From the NCBI RefSeq assembly GCF_013085465.1, contig NZ_CP049838.1:4588001-4652000 (forward strand): a stretch of DNA of 64,000 nt, given 5' to 3'. This document shows, piece by piece, positions 5,654 through 56,007 of the stretch (position 1 is its first letter; each line of letters begins with the position of its first letter). Both the position numbers and the translations under genes were made by a program. A model generated the notes under the pieces. It worked only from the letters and a program-made list of their open reading frames with translations. It was not told the DNA's origin and searched no databases. This DNA is from Streptomyces asoensis. GTDB lineage: Bacteria; Actinomycetota; Actinomycetes; Streptomycetales; Streptomycetaceae.

Positions 5654-7257
5654 GCGAGCCGACCTCCCCACCGGGCCTCGTCCCCACCGTCGTACGGCTG
5701 AAGCTGTCGCTGCTGCGCAACGGGCTGCGGCAGTCGGGTGGGCGGCGGGCCGCGTACGTCGCCTCCGCCCTCGTCACGCTGCTGTTCGCCGCGCTTCAGC
5801 TGCTCGGGCTGATCGCGTTGCGCGGGCACGACCACGCGGAGTCGCTGGTGGTGCTGCTCGCGGCGGTGCTGGGTCTGGGCTGGGCGGTGATGCCGCTGTT
5901 CTTCCCCAGCGGTGACGAGACCCTGGACCCGACCCGGCTGGTGATGCTGCCGCTGCGGCCCCGGCCGCTGGTGCGGGCGCTGCTGGCGGCCTCGCTGGTG
6001 GGCATCGGGCCGCTGTTCACACTGCTGATGCTGGTGGGGTCGGTGGTGTCCGTGGCGCACGGGGCCGCCGCGTGGGCGGTGGGCGTGCTCGCCGTCGCCC
6101 TCGGGCTGCTGGTGTGCGTGGCGCTCGCCCGGGCCGTGGCCGCCGCCAACATCCGGCTGCTGACCAGCCGTAAGGGACGCGACCTCGCGGTGCTGAGCGG
6201 GCTGGTCATCGCGATCGGGGCGCAGGTCGTCAACTTCGGGGCACAGCGGCTCGGGACGTCCGGTCTCGGGCAGCTCGATCCGGCGGCGGACGTGCTGCGC
6301 TGGCTGCCGCCCGCCTCGGCGATCGGCGCGGTGGACTCGGTGAGCGAGGGCGCGTACGGGGTCGCCGCCGCGCAGATCGCCGTCAGCGCGGGCGCGTTGG
6401 TGCTGCTGGTGCGGGTGTGGACGCGGAGTCTGACCAGATTGATGATCTCGCCCGACGGTTCCACCCTCCAGGCGGCCGAGCCGGCCGCGCGGGAACGGCG
6501 GAGCTCGGCGGGGCTCGGGCGGCTGCTGCCGGGCGGGCGCACCGGCACCGTGATGGAGCGCGGTCTGCGCTACATCTGGCGCGACCCGAAGACGAAGGCG
6601 GCCTGGGTGACGTCGCTGGCCATCGGGCTGATCGTGCCCGTCTTCAACGCCTTGCAGGGCACCGGCTCGATCTACTTCGCCTGTTTCGCCGCCGGGATGC
6701 TCGGCATCCAGATGTACAACCAGTTCGGGCAGGACACGTCCGCGTTCTGGATGGTCGCGATGACGATCTCCTCGCGCCGGGACGCGTACGTCGAGCTGCG
6801 CGCGCGGGCGCTGGCCCTGCTGCTGATCACTCTGCCGTACGCGACGCTGGTGACCGTGCTGACGACGGCGATGCTCGGCGACTGGTCGAAGCTGCCCGAG
6901 GCGCTGGGGCTGTCCCTCGCGCTGCTCGGCGCGATGCTGGCGACGGGCGCCTGGACCTCGGCCCGCTTCCCCTACTCGATTCCGCAGGAGGGCTACAAGA
7001 ACGTCGCCCCCGGTCAGGCCGGTCTCGCCTGGATCGCGATCTTCGGCGGGATGGTCTCGGCGGCCCTGCTGTGCGCGCCCGTCATCGCGGTGACGATCTG
7101 GCTGCACGTCACCGAGGGCGGGGACTCCTGGACCTGGCTGCTGCTGCCGGGGGGCGCGGTGTACGGCGCGGCAATCACGCTGCTGGGACTGCGCCTGGCC
7201 GCTCCCCGGACGGCGACGCGCCTCCCGGAGATCCTGACGGCGGTGAGCAAGGGCTGA
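5650..7257 (+). CDS. ABC transporter multi-span permease subunit
   Basis: 535 residues starting at the GTG that overlaps the ATPase stop. Around ten or more hydrophobic segments are visible in two bundles (about residues 30-170 and 180-270, then 330-520 after a polar stretch), consistent with a fused-type permease for the adjacent ATPase. Membrane segments include LVTLLFAALQLLGLIAL and VLAVALGLLVCVALARA. No substrate-specific motif is recognisable. The stop codon is the first TGA of a seven-unit 8-bp tandem repeat that fills the space towards the convergent hydrolase gene. Confidence 0.9.
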   Translation: MSEPTSPPGLVPTVVRLKLSLLRNGLRQSGGRRAAYVASALVTLLFAALQLLGLIALRGHDHAESLVVLLAAVLGLGWAVMPLFFPSGDETLDPTRLVMLPLRPRPLVRALLAASLVGIGPLFTLLMLVGSVVSVAHGAAAWAVGVLAVALGLLVCVALARAVAAANIRLLTSRKGRDLAVLSGLVIAIGAQVVNFGAQRLGTSGLGQLDPAADVLRWLPPASAIGAVDSVSEGAYGVAAAQIAVSAGALVLLVRVWTRSLTRLMISPDGSTLQAAEPAARERRSSAGLGRLLPGGRTGTVMERGLRYIWRDPKTKAAWVTSLAIGLIVPVFNALQGTGSIYFACFAAGMLGIQMYNQFGQDTSAFWMVAMTISSRRDAYVELRARALALLLITLPYATLVTVLTTAMLGDWSKLPEALGLSLALLGAMLATGAWTSARFPYSIPQEGYKNVAPGQAGLAWIAIFGGMVSAALLCAPVIAVTIWLHVTEGGDSWTWLLLPGGAVYGAAITLLGLRLAAPRTATRLPEILTAVSKG

Positions 7258-7310
7258 CCTCCTGACCCCCTGACCCCCTGACCTCCTGACCCCCTGACCC
7301 CCTGACCCCC
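7255..7310. repeat. 8-bp tandem repeat starting at the permease stop codon
   Basis: Seven consecutive TGACCYCC units, the first being the stop codon of the ABC permease. Because 8 is not a multiple of 3 the TGA triplets rotate through all three frames, so any ribosome passing the stop would meet another within the array. Confidence 0.95.
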
Positions 7311-7395
7311 GAGGGTGACCGGACCACGGCCTCGGAGGGCTTCGGCGGGCTTCGGCGGGCGTCAGGAGGCTCCCGCGGACCCGCAGGGGCCCCAG

Positions 7396-55100: not shown

Positions 55101-55357
55101 GCGACGAGGACGCCGTCCCGGAGGGTGAGCCGCAGCCGCCCCGGCACGCCGGCCCTGGCCGCGGCGTCGGCGGCGTTCTGAGCGAGCTCGACGACGAGCC
55201 GGTCCCGGTACCCGCCGAGGACGAGATCCTCCTCGGCGTTGGCGTCCTCCCGGAAACGGGCGGGGCTGGTCGCCCAGGCGTCCAGGACTCCGCGACGCAG
55301 GCGGGCCGTGCCGAAGGGGTCCGCGCCCTCGGGTGCCGGCCGCACGAACTTGCTCAC
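52154..55357 (-). CDS. Large Hsp90/sacsin-like ATP-binding protein
   Basis: 1067 residues; the GTG at 55357 has GGAG upstream, and an ATG 15 bp earlier is possible. A GHKL (Bergerat) ATPase domain at the N terminus: ELAQNAADAAARAGVPG (N-box), VAANTGAPLDAAGVESLATL (G1) and VGRFGVGFAAVLAVTDEPAV (G2), as in sacsin-type proteins. The rest is long, acidic and unclassified. Such proteins are thought to act in protein or nucleic-acid quality control. Residues around 530-545 (AGGTSQAFGTGG) derive from an inserted 35-bp repeat. Monocistronic. Confidence 0.88.
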   Translation of the reverse strand: MSKFVRPAPEGADPFGTARLRRGVLDAWATSPARFREDANAEEDLVLGGYRDRLVVELAQNAADAAARAGVPGRLRLTLRDGVLVAANTGAPLDAAGVESLATLRASAKREARQSAVAVGRFGVGFAAVLAVTDEPAVVGRHGGVRWDLAEARALASETARHSPGLGDEIRRRDGHVPLLRLPFAAQGTAPDPYDTAVILPLRDAAAADLAERLLTVVDDALLLALPGLEEVVIEIGDDAPRVLRRDTDAGDEALTVVADTRDGTTRWRVATAHGPLTPDLLVDRPVEERLRPHWSVTWAVPVDDDGSPARPRTTPVVHAPTPSDEPLGVPALLIGSFPLDTTRRHAAPGPLTDHLVQRAADAYAELLAGWRPVGAGIIDLVPGPLGKGELDGALRQAILERLPRTAFLPPAVRPVPEDGEGDGGDGVDVVELPEALRPRDAEVVEGAGADTVRVLAEVLPTLLPAGLERRVELRTLGVARIPLADAVDRLAGLEKDPEWWYRLYDSLAGVDPDRLSGLPVPLAGGTSQAFGTGGMRTTIGPRQVLLPTADAAGPDPEILARLGLKVAHQDAAHPLLEKLGALPATPRAVLTTPQVRAAVAASLDDDGGAWDDQDTPDAEELADTVLALVRDAGLDPGDEPWLGALALPDEEGELVPAGELVLPGSPFASVVREDELAFVDAELADRWGEQPLAACGVLANFALVRATDVVLDPDELEPREGDFAEPDDAGLLDAVDVWCEDILDRFPDSPVPPVATELVAVRDLDLVDDDRWPQALALLARPPLRDALTQPVRILLPDGTHEVVRPYTAWWLRGNPVLDGRRPAGLLAAGGDPLLHGLYEEADATGFDDEQVLRALGVRTSVAALLEEPGGAAELLDRLADPERPVSAAQLHGLYGALAELDPEQVTLPEELRAVVDGRVEVVDAADAVVVDSPDLLPFTEGVPLLPVRPSRAAELAELFQVRRLSESVTGQVDSEGVEHDVSEPVRVLLGPRTPETYVEHEELVVDGVEIDWRLTDDGVLHAATLEGVAAGLAWAARQWPRRFEVAALLEDPSRTAELARDRWFD
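53753..53787. repeat. 35-bp palindromic repeat inserted inside the sacsin-like gene
   Basis: Arms CTGGGGGTACCTCCC and GGGGGA-type ends (minus strand) flank a GGCTTTCGGCA centre, the layout of the small palindromic repeats common between Streptomyces genes. It is read through as Ala-Gly-Gly-Thr-Ser-Gln-Ala-Phe-Gly-Thr-Gly-Gly, keeping the frame open. Confidence 0.6.
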
Positions 55358-56007
55358 GTTCACTCTCCTCATCGGCGTGGGCTCGAAGGTACCGCGAGCC
55401 GAACCACCGCCAGAACGTCCCGTAGGGCCGTACCCGGGCCCCGACCACCCCCCACATCACAATCACACAACAACTGAATCCCCAGGCGGCCCCCAGGCCC
55501 CAAAAAGGCCGACCTGCGCTCAGGAACAACGCCGAACGCAGCCCTGCGGGGCCTGTGGCCCCGCAGGGTCGGGAGTGCCCCTGGGAGGCGCCGGGCTGGG
55601 CCCTGAGGGCCACATTCGGCCCGGCGGGGGCCAGGCTGGACCCCGGCAGGGTCGACATGCTCCCGGAAGGGACGGATTCCAGCCCTGGAGGAACCGAGTC
55701 GGCCCCAGGAGGGGCCGCGATCGGCCCTGCAAGGGACCGGGATCGGCCCCGGAAGAGACCGGGATCGGGCCCGGAAGAGACCGGGATCGGGCCCCGGGAA
55801 GGGACCAGGGGTGGCCCGCGCCAGGTAGGGCCGGGGGTGGCCCTGGGTGAGCCAGGGTTGGCCCGCGCCAGGTGAGGCCGGGGGTGGCCCTGGGCAGGGC
55901 CGGAGGTGGCCCGCGCCAGGTGAGGCCGGGAGTGACCCTGGGCGGGGCCGGAGGTGGCCCGCGCCAGGTGGGGCCGGGGGTGGCCCTGGGTGGGGCCGGG
56001 GGTGGGT
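55358..56007. other. Repeat-filled intergenic region
   Basis: 650 bp with no gene. It is built of G/C-rich tandem repeats: three 22-bp units beginning ACCGGGATCGG (55736-55801), then four 47-48-bp units beginning TGGCCCGCGCCAGG (55812-56002). Upstream of these is a diffuse stretch of CCTGGAGG/GGCCC words. Confidence 0.8.
55812..56002. repeat. 47-48-bp tandem repeat after the DUF3027 stop codon
   Basis: Four copies at 55812, 55859, 55907 and 55955, each starting TGGCCCGCGCCAGGT. The array begins 6 bp beyond the stop of the DUF3027 gene (minus strand). Confidence 0.85.

Follow-up and report, generated by a model that had tools for sequence, protein, structure and literature searches.

Introduction

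Bacterial minisatellites, or variable number tandem repeats (VNTRs), consist of short units repeated head to tail, mostly in noncoding DNA, and change copy number by whole units between relatives through slipped-strand mispairing. The tandem repeats described here are like them in these respects. They were noticed in a 64,000-nucleotide stretch of the Streptomyces asoensis chromosome (the window; G000:C1:4588001-4652000, on a single-contig genome of 10.04 Mb), where arrays of unrelated sequence are anchored at the stop codons of seven genes. What sets them apart from ordinary minisatellites is that the unit is particular to each gene end and seeded by it, and that one orthologous stop, that of a xanthine/uracil permease gene, has gained arrays repeatedly.

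Several other repeat systems bear a resemblance. The repetitive extragenic palindromic sequences and bacterial interspersed mosaic elements (REP/BIME) of E. coli are found downstream of genes, past the stop codons, and belong to a dispersed palindromic family. The ends of mycobacterial interspersed repetitive units (MIRUs) overlap stop and start codons. MIRU-VNTRs are, like our arrays, tandem units in actinobacterial spacers that are polymorphic between strains, but the consulted part of PMC2734929 describes MIRUs as one dispersed family at 41 places in M. tuberculosis, whereas the units here share no sequence. The TAACTGA heptamer repeats of Beggiatoaceae are also short, stop-containing tandem units, and 13 sets overlap the stop of the upstream gene; in contrast to ours, and as far as the part consulted goes (PMC4679880), they are copies of one conserved heptamer, mostly just before start codons. 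The archaeal Borg tandem repeats, from the part consulted of PMC9879509, are fast-evolving and independently formed, as ours are, but they are perfect and A-rich, whereas ours are GC-rich, imperfect and carried by bacterial chromosomes; that part of the paper holds no null test of placement and traces no single stop across species. Among the matches listed in open PMC text, outside which most subscription papers and bioRxiv fall, there was no comparable analysis of stop-anchored repeats.

We consider it probable that the arrays arise by recurrent slippage duplication, tolerated since the first copy keeps the C-terminus and stop of the gene, gene ends being the places where duplication is harmless.

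Results

Arrays Lie at Stops Rather than Starts

An earlier note on this DNA reported the seven arrays and held that their common factor is position, not sequence. Tandem Repeats Finder (TRF) recovers all seven, with periods of 8-48 bp, 2.5-7.4 copies and units unrelated to each other (Table 1), and as head-to-tail tandem units of about 5-100 bp they fall within the definition of minisatellites. The role of position is borne out by a wider count. Genes were predicted with our own codon-usage caller, which was checked on plasmid SAP1 only, recovering 36 of 40 annotated stops with 1 extra; arrays were called with TRF. The genome sample was the window plus 100 evenly spaced 20-kb stretches, 2.06 Mb in all. 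Arrays with a score of at least 50 and at least 2.5 copies, reaching the codon and running outward into noncoding flank, occur at 49 of 1376 stop-side flanks and at 4 of 1456 start-side flanks. In a second set, 80 named Streptomyces loci surrounding the permease gene, the counts are 48/1281 and 6/1396. Array coverage is about 0.7% within genes, rises to 4-7% immediately past the stop and is then level through the stop-side spacer. Near starts, it is 0.4% and increases gradually, reaching 7% more than 200 bp away. Wholly coding arrays (score at least 60, at least 3 copies) have a period divisible by 3 in 58 of 59 cases. Stop-anchored arrays do so in 32/80 and 17/63 cases and are not frame-bound.

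The window is an unusually array-rich stretch whose density is not typical. Arrays occur at 6 of its 42 stops with noncoding flanks and at 43 of 1334 in the 100 other stretches (Fisher p = 0.003, a value inflated by the choice of the window for this feature); the array at 14381 falls below the cut-off of this comparison. Stretches beyond 8 Mb of the same genome have sparse stop-anchored arrays, with 2/160, 1/162 and 0/13 stops, and the other chromosome end less so (6/161 and 3/160).

The direction is the same in three other sequences, each too small to be read alone: Nonomuraea with 8/145 stop and 3/159 start flanks (p = 0.12), a plasmid of Streptomyces sp. BHT-5-2 with 5/134 and 1/142 (p = 0.11), and E. 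coli K-12 with 1/122 and 0/134. Total arrays number 35 per 250 kb, 24 per 200 kb and 1 per 200 kb, respectively. The sole E. coli array found, with a 98-bp unit beside fadA, resembles REP/BIME. In Nonomuraea gerenzanensis (L271), a 369-bp unit repeated 19.9 times touches a predicted gene stop near 36151.

Arrays Turn Over among Close Relatives

The seven main stops were read in five related genomes, and the arrays of the window itself are absent from all 29 readable rows of the 35. Four of the unusable rows had no match (G016 at 7257 and 50146; G007 and G009 at 14381) and two were read at the wrong place (G011 at 14381 and G013 at 31169); among the kept rows, G007 at 50146 is probably a neighboring paralog. 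By site, the 7257 and 31169 arrays are missing from four readable relatives each and the 7447 and 56008 arrays from five each. All four relatives with a row at 50146 lack the array there, and the two-copy duplication at 60886-60901 is missing from the four that are readable at that site. The nearest of the five, G013, has arrays of its own at two of the seven stops, as judged by eye: 14381 has a 10-bp TCCCGGGTGA x5 array, and 44769 has a loose ACCTGAGCC repeat. In L184, the permease gene is 97.6% identical to that of the window over its last 449 nt, yet the 23-bp array is lacking and a degenerate 20-bp array is present.

Across 18 orthologous stops of the region, with at least 8 members each, 14 have an array somewhere, and the total is 41 arrays-bearing flanks out of 1013; in this survey, L184 is among the sequences whose 50146 row lands on a paralog. 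At the stop at 43881, 0/80 sequences have an array, and a conserved GAGGAGGCG stretch follows it in the six sequences read, small changes aside.

Arrays Arose Repeatedly at the Permease Stop

The permease stop was surveyed in 79 of the 80 loci, L245 being dropped because the opposite gene is missing. Arrays with periods of 5-54 bp are present in 22/79, compared to a shuffle mean of 3.05 and 8 in an equal coding stretch; 57/79 are without an array. At a score of at least 50, and with three loci with spacers of more than 400 bp excluded, the count is 17/76, compared to 0.1 in shuffles and 3 in the coding control. On a tree of the permease gene, the distribution needs 12 changes for stop-spanning arrays, 18 for any array and 21 for unit classes. 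This was a quick tree made with the last 60 nt of the gene removed, and 27/79 of its inner branches are poorly supported. Its labels were set by hand: L209 and L216, whose repeats are unrelated to the stop, were removed from the 22 array loci, the window and G013 (by eye) were added, and the arrays of L217, L196 and L210 amount to roughly two copies each.

In six loci, the permease gene and the convergent gene opposite overlap by 8 bp, and where the overlapping stops are TGA, both share the palindrome TCACGTGA. For arrays covering both stops of the pair, the spacer plus 8 bp is a whole number of periods in four of five. This is the pattern expected had the 8-bp overlap been copied in full. At this stop, five pairs picked by hand differ by a single gap of 1 x 28, 3 x 5, 2 x 21, 3 x 14 and 1 x 14 bp. 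L248 and L253 are exactly one 28-bp unit apart, and between the sisters L190 and L193 the difference is 15 bp, or three 5-bp units; relative to overlapping relatives, L207 has two extra 21-bp copies and L254 has three 14-bp copies. Whole-unit differences between close relatives, the mark of a VNTR, are seen in these pairs, and copy number, which the earlier note proposed to compare, does vary among close relatives. Arrays covering both stops are rare elsewhere, at 2/303 convergent pairs in the genome sample and 6/387 in the 80 loci, the permease pair included. In at least one gene pair, copying of the gene end has apparently built the intergenic spacer.

The permease end contains CCTGA twice, 23 bp apart, which is the unit length of the array in the window. 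The two species with 5-bp arrays, L190 and L261, both have CTGACCTGA at the stop, and so do 31 of the 80 loci. Past the permease stop of L261, L234 and L216, the opposite gene is 2485, 1173 and 447 bp away, compared to a median of 10 in array-free loci; these long gaps are likely insertions at the junction. In L200, GTTCTACGGGCTCACGTGACCCCGTAGAAC follows the stop and the junction is a near-perfect inverted repeat. Palindromic copying at that junction could also yield a hairpin.

Placement of Arrays Relative to the Stop

Since an array lengthens its own spacer, a fair null must collapse it to one unit. Each array was therefore reduced to a single unit and re-placed at random in its spacer, free to cross stops and barred from crossing starts. 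This was done for 82 convergent and 168 tandem arrays from both sets, with start-side avoidance in tandem spacers weighted as measured in divergent ones. In convergent spacers, 36 arrays span a stop and 29.1 are expected (z 1.9; by set, 14 and 22 observed, 11.0 and 18.1 expected). In tandem spacers, the figures are 31 and 28.7 (z 0.5). Periods divisible by 3 give no spanning excess (convergent 7 observed and 6.8 expected, tandem 7 and 12.6). The numbers of stop-spanning arrays are thus close to those of random placement.

Two other calculations were set aside. A naive count of array edges gives 19 per 10,000 positions at -4 to 4 bp of the stop and 5-10 at 25-100 bp. It was discarded as proof of targeting, since an array stretches the spacer it lies in and avoidance of starts drives arrays toward stops. 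A tandem null whose start-side weights were set by hand (31 spanning with 31.4 expected; 39 edges at most 8 bp from a stop with 24.8 expected) was replaced because these weights were steeper than the measured ones, after which the excess was slightly larger.

The Individual Arrays

The arrays and the weaker sites, which also exist as described, are listed in Table 1. Product names there are from Pfam, which gives no match for the genes that end at 7257 and 50146.

Table 1. Stop-anchored repeats of the window
Repeat	Position	Strand	Relation to gene
8-bp array, CTGACCCC x7 (TRF x7.1)	7254..7310	+	passes through TGA 7255-7257 of gene 5650-7257
9-bp array x7.4	7384..7451	-	through TGA 7447-7449 of alpha/beta hydrolase gene 7447-8403
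12-bp array TCCCGCGTGTGA	14373..14417	+	at TGA 14379-14381 of 2OG-Fe(II) oxygenase gene 13365-14381
11/22-bp array	31110..31179	-	at TGA 31169-31171 of FAD-linked oxidase/4Fe-4S gene 31169-34054
23-bp array x5.7	44668..44797	-	at stop 44769-44771 of xanthine/uracil permease gene 44769-46220
13-bp array x4.9	50084..50147	-	between TAA 50146-50148 of gene 50146-51057 and a terminator-like hairpin
48-bp array x4.5	55790..56005	-	begins 2 bp past TAG 56008-56010 of DUF3027 gene 56008-56970
two-copy 8-bp duplication CCGTAACG	60886..60901	+	across TAA of gene 60043-60891
two-copy imperfect 23-bp repeat (x1.9, 80% match)	2359..2402	-	across TGA of gene 2391-3734
low-complexity GACC/CCCG repeats	203..272	+	immediately past stop 202-204

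TRF describes two of these in more than one way. The 14381 array appears as 14378-14417 (12 bp x3.3), with a top-scoring row of 14373-14444 (34 bp x2.1), and the 31169 array as 31110-31164 (22 bp x2.5) and as 11 bp x6.3 reaching 31179. The permease array had been placed with the stop at 44790, which is mistaken: it starts 29 bp inside the gene, and its first unit consists of the last codons and the TGA. In five of the seven arrays, the gene's own stop triplet is repeated in later units. The exceptions are 50146, where the gene stop is TAA and three units carry TAG, and 56008, where the units have no stop at all. The 7254-7310 array has TGA in each downstream unit, and the 7384-7451 array has five in-frame TGA copies downstream.

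The arrays do not resemble intrinsic terminators or the dispersed families. By eye, no T run follows any of the seven. A comparison of 7.0-7.56 kb of the window, the one site so searched, to its own genome gave two weak partial matches besides itself and no dispersed shared unit like a MIRU. No palindromic dispersed unit like REP/BIME was found either, the units of the seven arrays being different and the 8-bp array having a minimum free energy of 0.

The window has a G+C content of 68-76% in 4-kb steps. It also holds a 20-bp x5.2 array (score 168) at 28463-28567, which is not at a stop and lies in a spacer flanked by predicted genes 27181-28404(-) and 28704-29543(-). An imperfect 48-bp x4.3 array, with a period divisible by 3, lies at 1372-1579 within predicted gene 295-2178(-).

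Discussion

In the explanation we favor, the arrays would be young bacterial minisatellites that began as slipped-strand duplications between short direct repeats. A duplication of any length spanning a stop would keep the frame, the C-terminus and the first stop, and the extra copies would land beyond the gene. Where two genes meet tail to tail, such a duplication would be harmless to both, one using the stop of the first copy and the other that of the last. Duplications inside a gene would have to hold the frame, and those before a start would harm the leader or promoter and be lost. From two copies on, slippage could add or remove whole units, the noncoding copies would drift, and an array could be replaced by one of a different unit. 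Arrays would then be found at gene ends mainly because duplication does no harm there. We infer both slippage as the molecular step, with which the matching short direct repeats at the right distance in the permease end agree, and tolerance as the main reason for the position. Canonical repair may in any case miss loops of 5-50 bp. A high duplication background is plausible because actinobacteria are without MutS/MutL and NucS leaves indels uncorrected, according to the parts consulted of PMC5290159 and PMC8228993.

Several results weigh against this explanation. In tandem spacers, 39 array edges lie no more than 8 bp from a stop, with 23.0 expected (z 3.9; with the weights applied to the unit's middle, 39 and 22.1, and 31 and 27.0 for spanning), and in convergent spacers 31 do, with 23.5 expected (z 2.1; without the permease pair, 26 and 17.5, z 2.7). 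Periods not divisible by 3 are the least disturbed by unrecognized coding repeats, and for these, both spanning (tandem 24 with 16.1 expected, z 2.4; convergent 29 with 22.3 expected, z 2.2) and edges within 8 bp (tandem 27 and 14.4, z 4.0; convergent 24 and 17.2) are in excess. The tandem expectation for spanning, with 31 observed, also varies with a fixed start buffer, being 22.7, 31.0, 39.3 and 49.2 for 15, 40, 70 and 100 bp. An age effect, by which edges would retreat to the stop in older arrays with the coding copy conserved, is weak and not significant (correlation of depth with percent match: rho 0.18 and 0.20; p 0.10 and 0.11) and was rejected. The permease stop is a hotspot (11/69, p = 1e-4), and opportunity therefore differs among stops. 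In S. ambofaciens, mutation-accumulation lines gave only 1-4 bp indels, with repeated sequences excluded, in the part consulted of PMC11109965. The bulk of stop anchoring is random placement, and tolerance does not account for the modest focal surplus of edges at stops, which reaches about 1.9-fold. There may be a modest mutational preference for gene ends.

A stronger version of that preference is that some process at gene 3' ends, such as replication-transcription conflict, R-loops, termination intermediates or stop-containing short repeats, raises duplication at stops above the rest of the spacer. The earlier note proposed slippage or repair of this kind and a comparison of array boundaries with random placement. 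The residual edge excess, the spanning excess for periods not divisible by 3, the permease hotspot and the cluster of arrays in the window would all suit it. The arrays do look mutational, and the boundary enrichment holds for edges; spanning is near expectation, and action specific to the end is mostly unsupported. Coverage through the stop-side spacer is level, without a peak at the stop, and convergent spacers are no richer in arrays than tandem ones (30/277 and 90/851). The sense strand has no C/G preference (C exceeds G in 41/80 and 26/63 stop-anchored arrays), and the leading/lagging split of 48:32 tracks gene numbers of 996:737, a mid-chromosome origin being assumed. We therefore consider such a process unlikely to be the main cause.

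It is still less probable that the arrays were selected as back-up stops, as terminators or as insulators between neighboring genes. The repeated stop triplets, with an in-frame second stop available in five of the seven arrays, are what back-up stops would look like, and in three arrays the folding is stronger than in mononucleotide shuffles (z -2.8, -2.9 and -5.4). The other four fold near shuffled values (z -1.8 to 2.0), and the 50146 array precedes a hairpin near 50 kb that is separate from it and beyond it. Units not tied to the frame speak against back-up stops, and the lack of a convergent excess per spacer speaks against the suggested insulation of convergent genes. The absence of the window's arrays from every readable row of the relatives, the many array-free permease loci and a stop-spanning excess that is at most modest point the same way. 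A selected role has no support, although single arrays could be co-opted. An artifact of assembly or gene calling is very improbable. Short-read assemblies can miscount repeats, and we relied on our own caller without curated annotation for the genome. Set against this are the SAP1 check, the location of the window on a single 10-Mb contig, the confirmation of several stops by ortholog alignment and the recurrence of the pattern in independent public assemblies.

The tolerance of slippage duplication at gene ends can be extended, more tentatively, to a neutral ratchet by which gene-end duplication makes intergenic DNA in high-GC actinobacteria, so that much 3' spacer might be decayed gene-end copies; we regard this as possible, and lean somewhat away from it. 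Tail-to-tail genes with overlapping stops, like the permease pair with its shared palindrome, would be copied whole, at once opening a spacer as long as k units less the overlap. This new spacer would then grow, drift and be replaced.

The findings provide a simple rule for repeats at gene ends that calls for no repeat-specific function, and a caution against taking stop-anchored repeats for regulatory elements. They also supply fast-evolving, gene-anchored markers for Streptomyces typing, and they make visible a route from overlapping convergent genes to the spacers between them.

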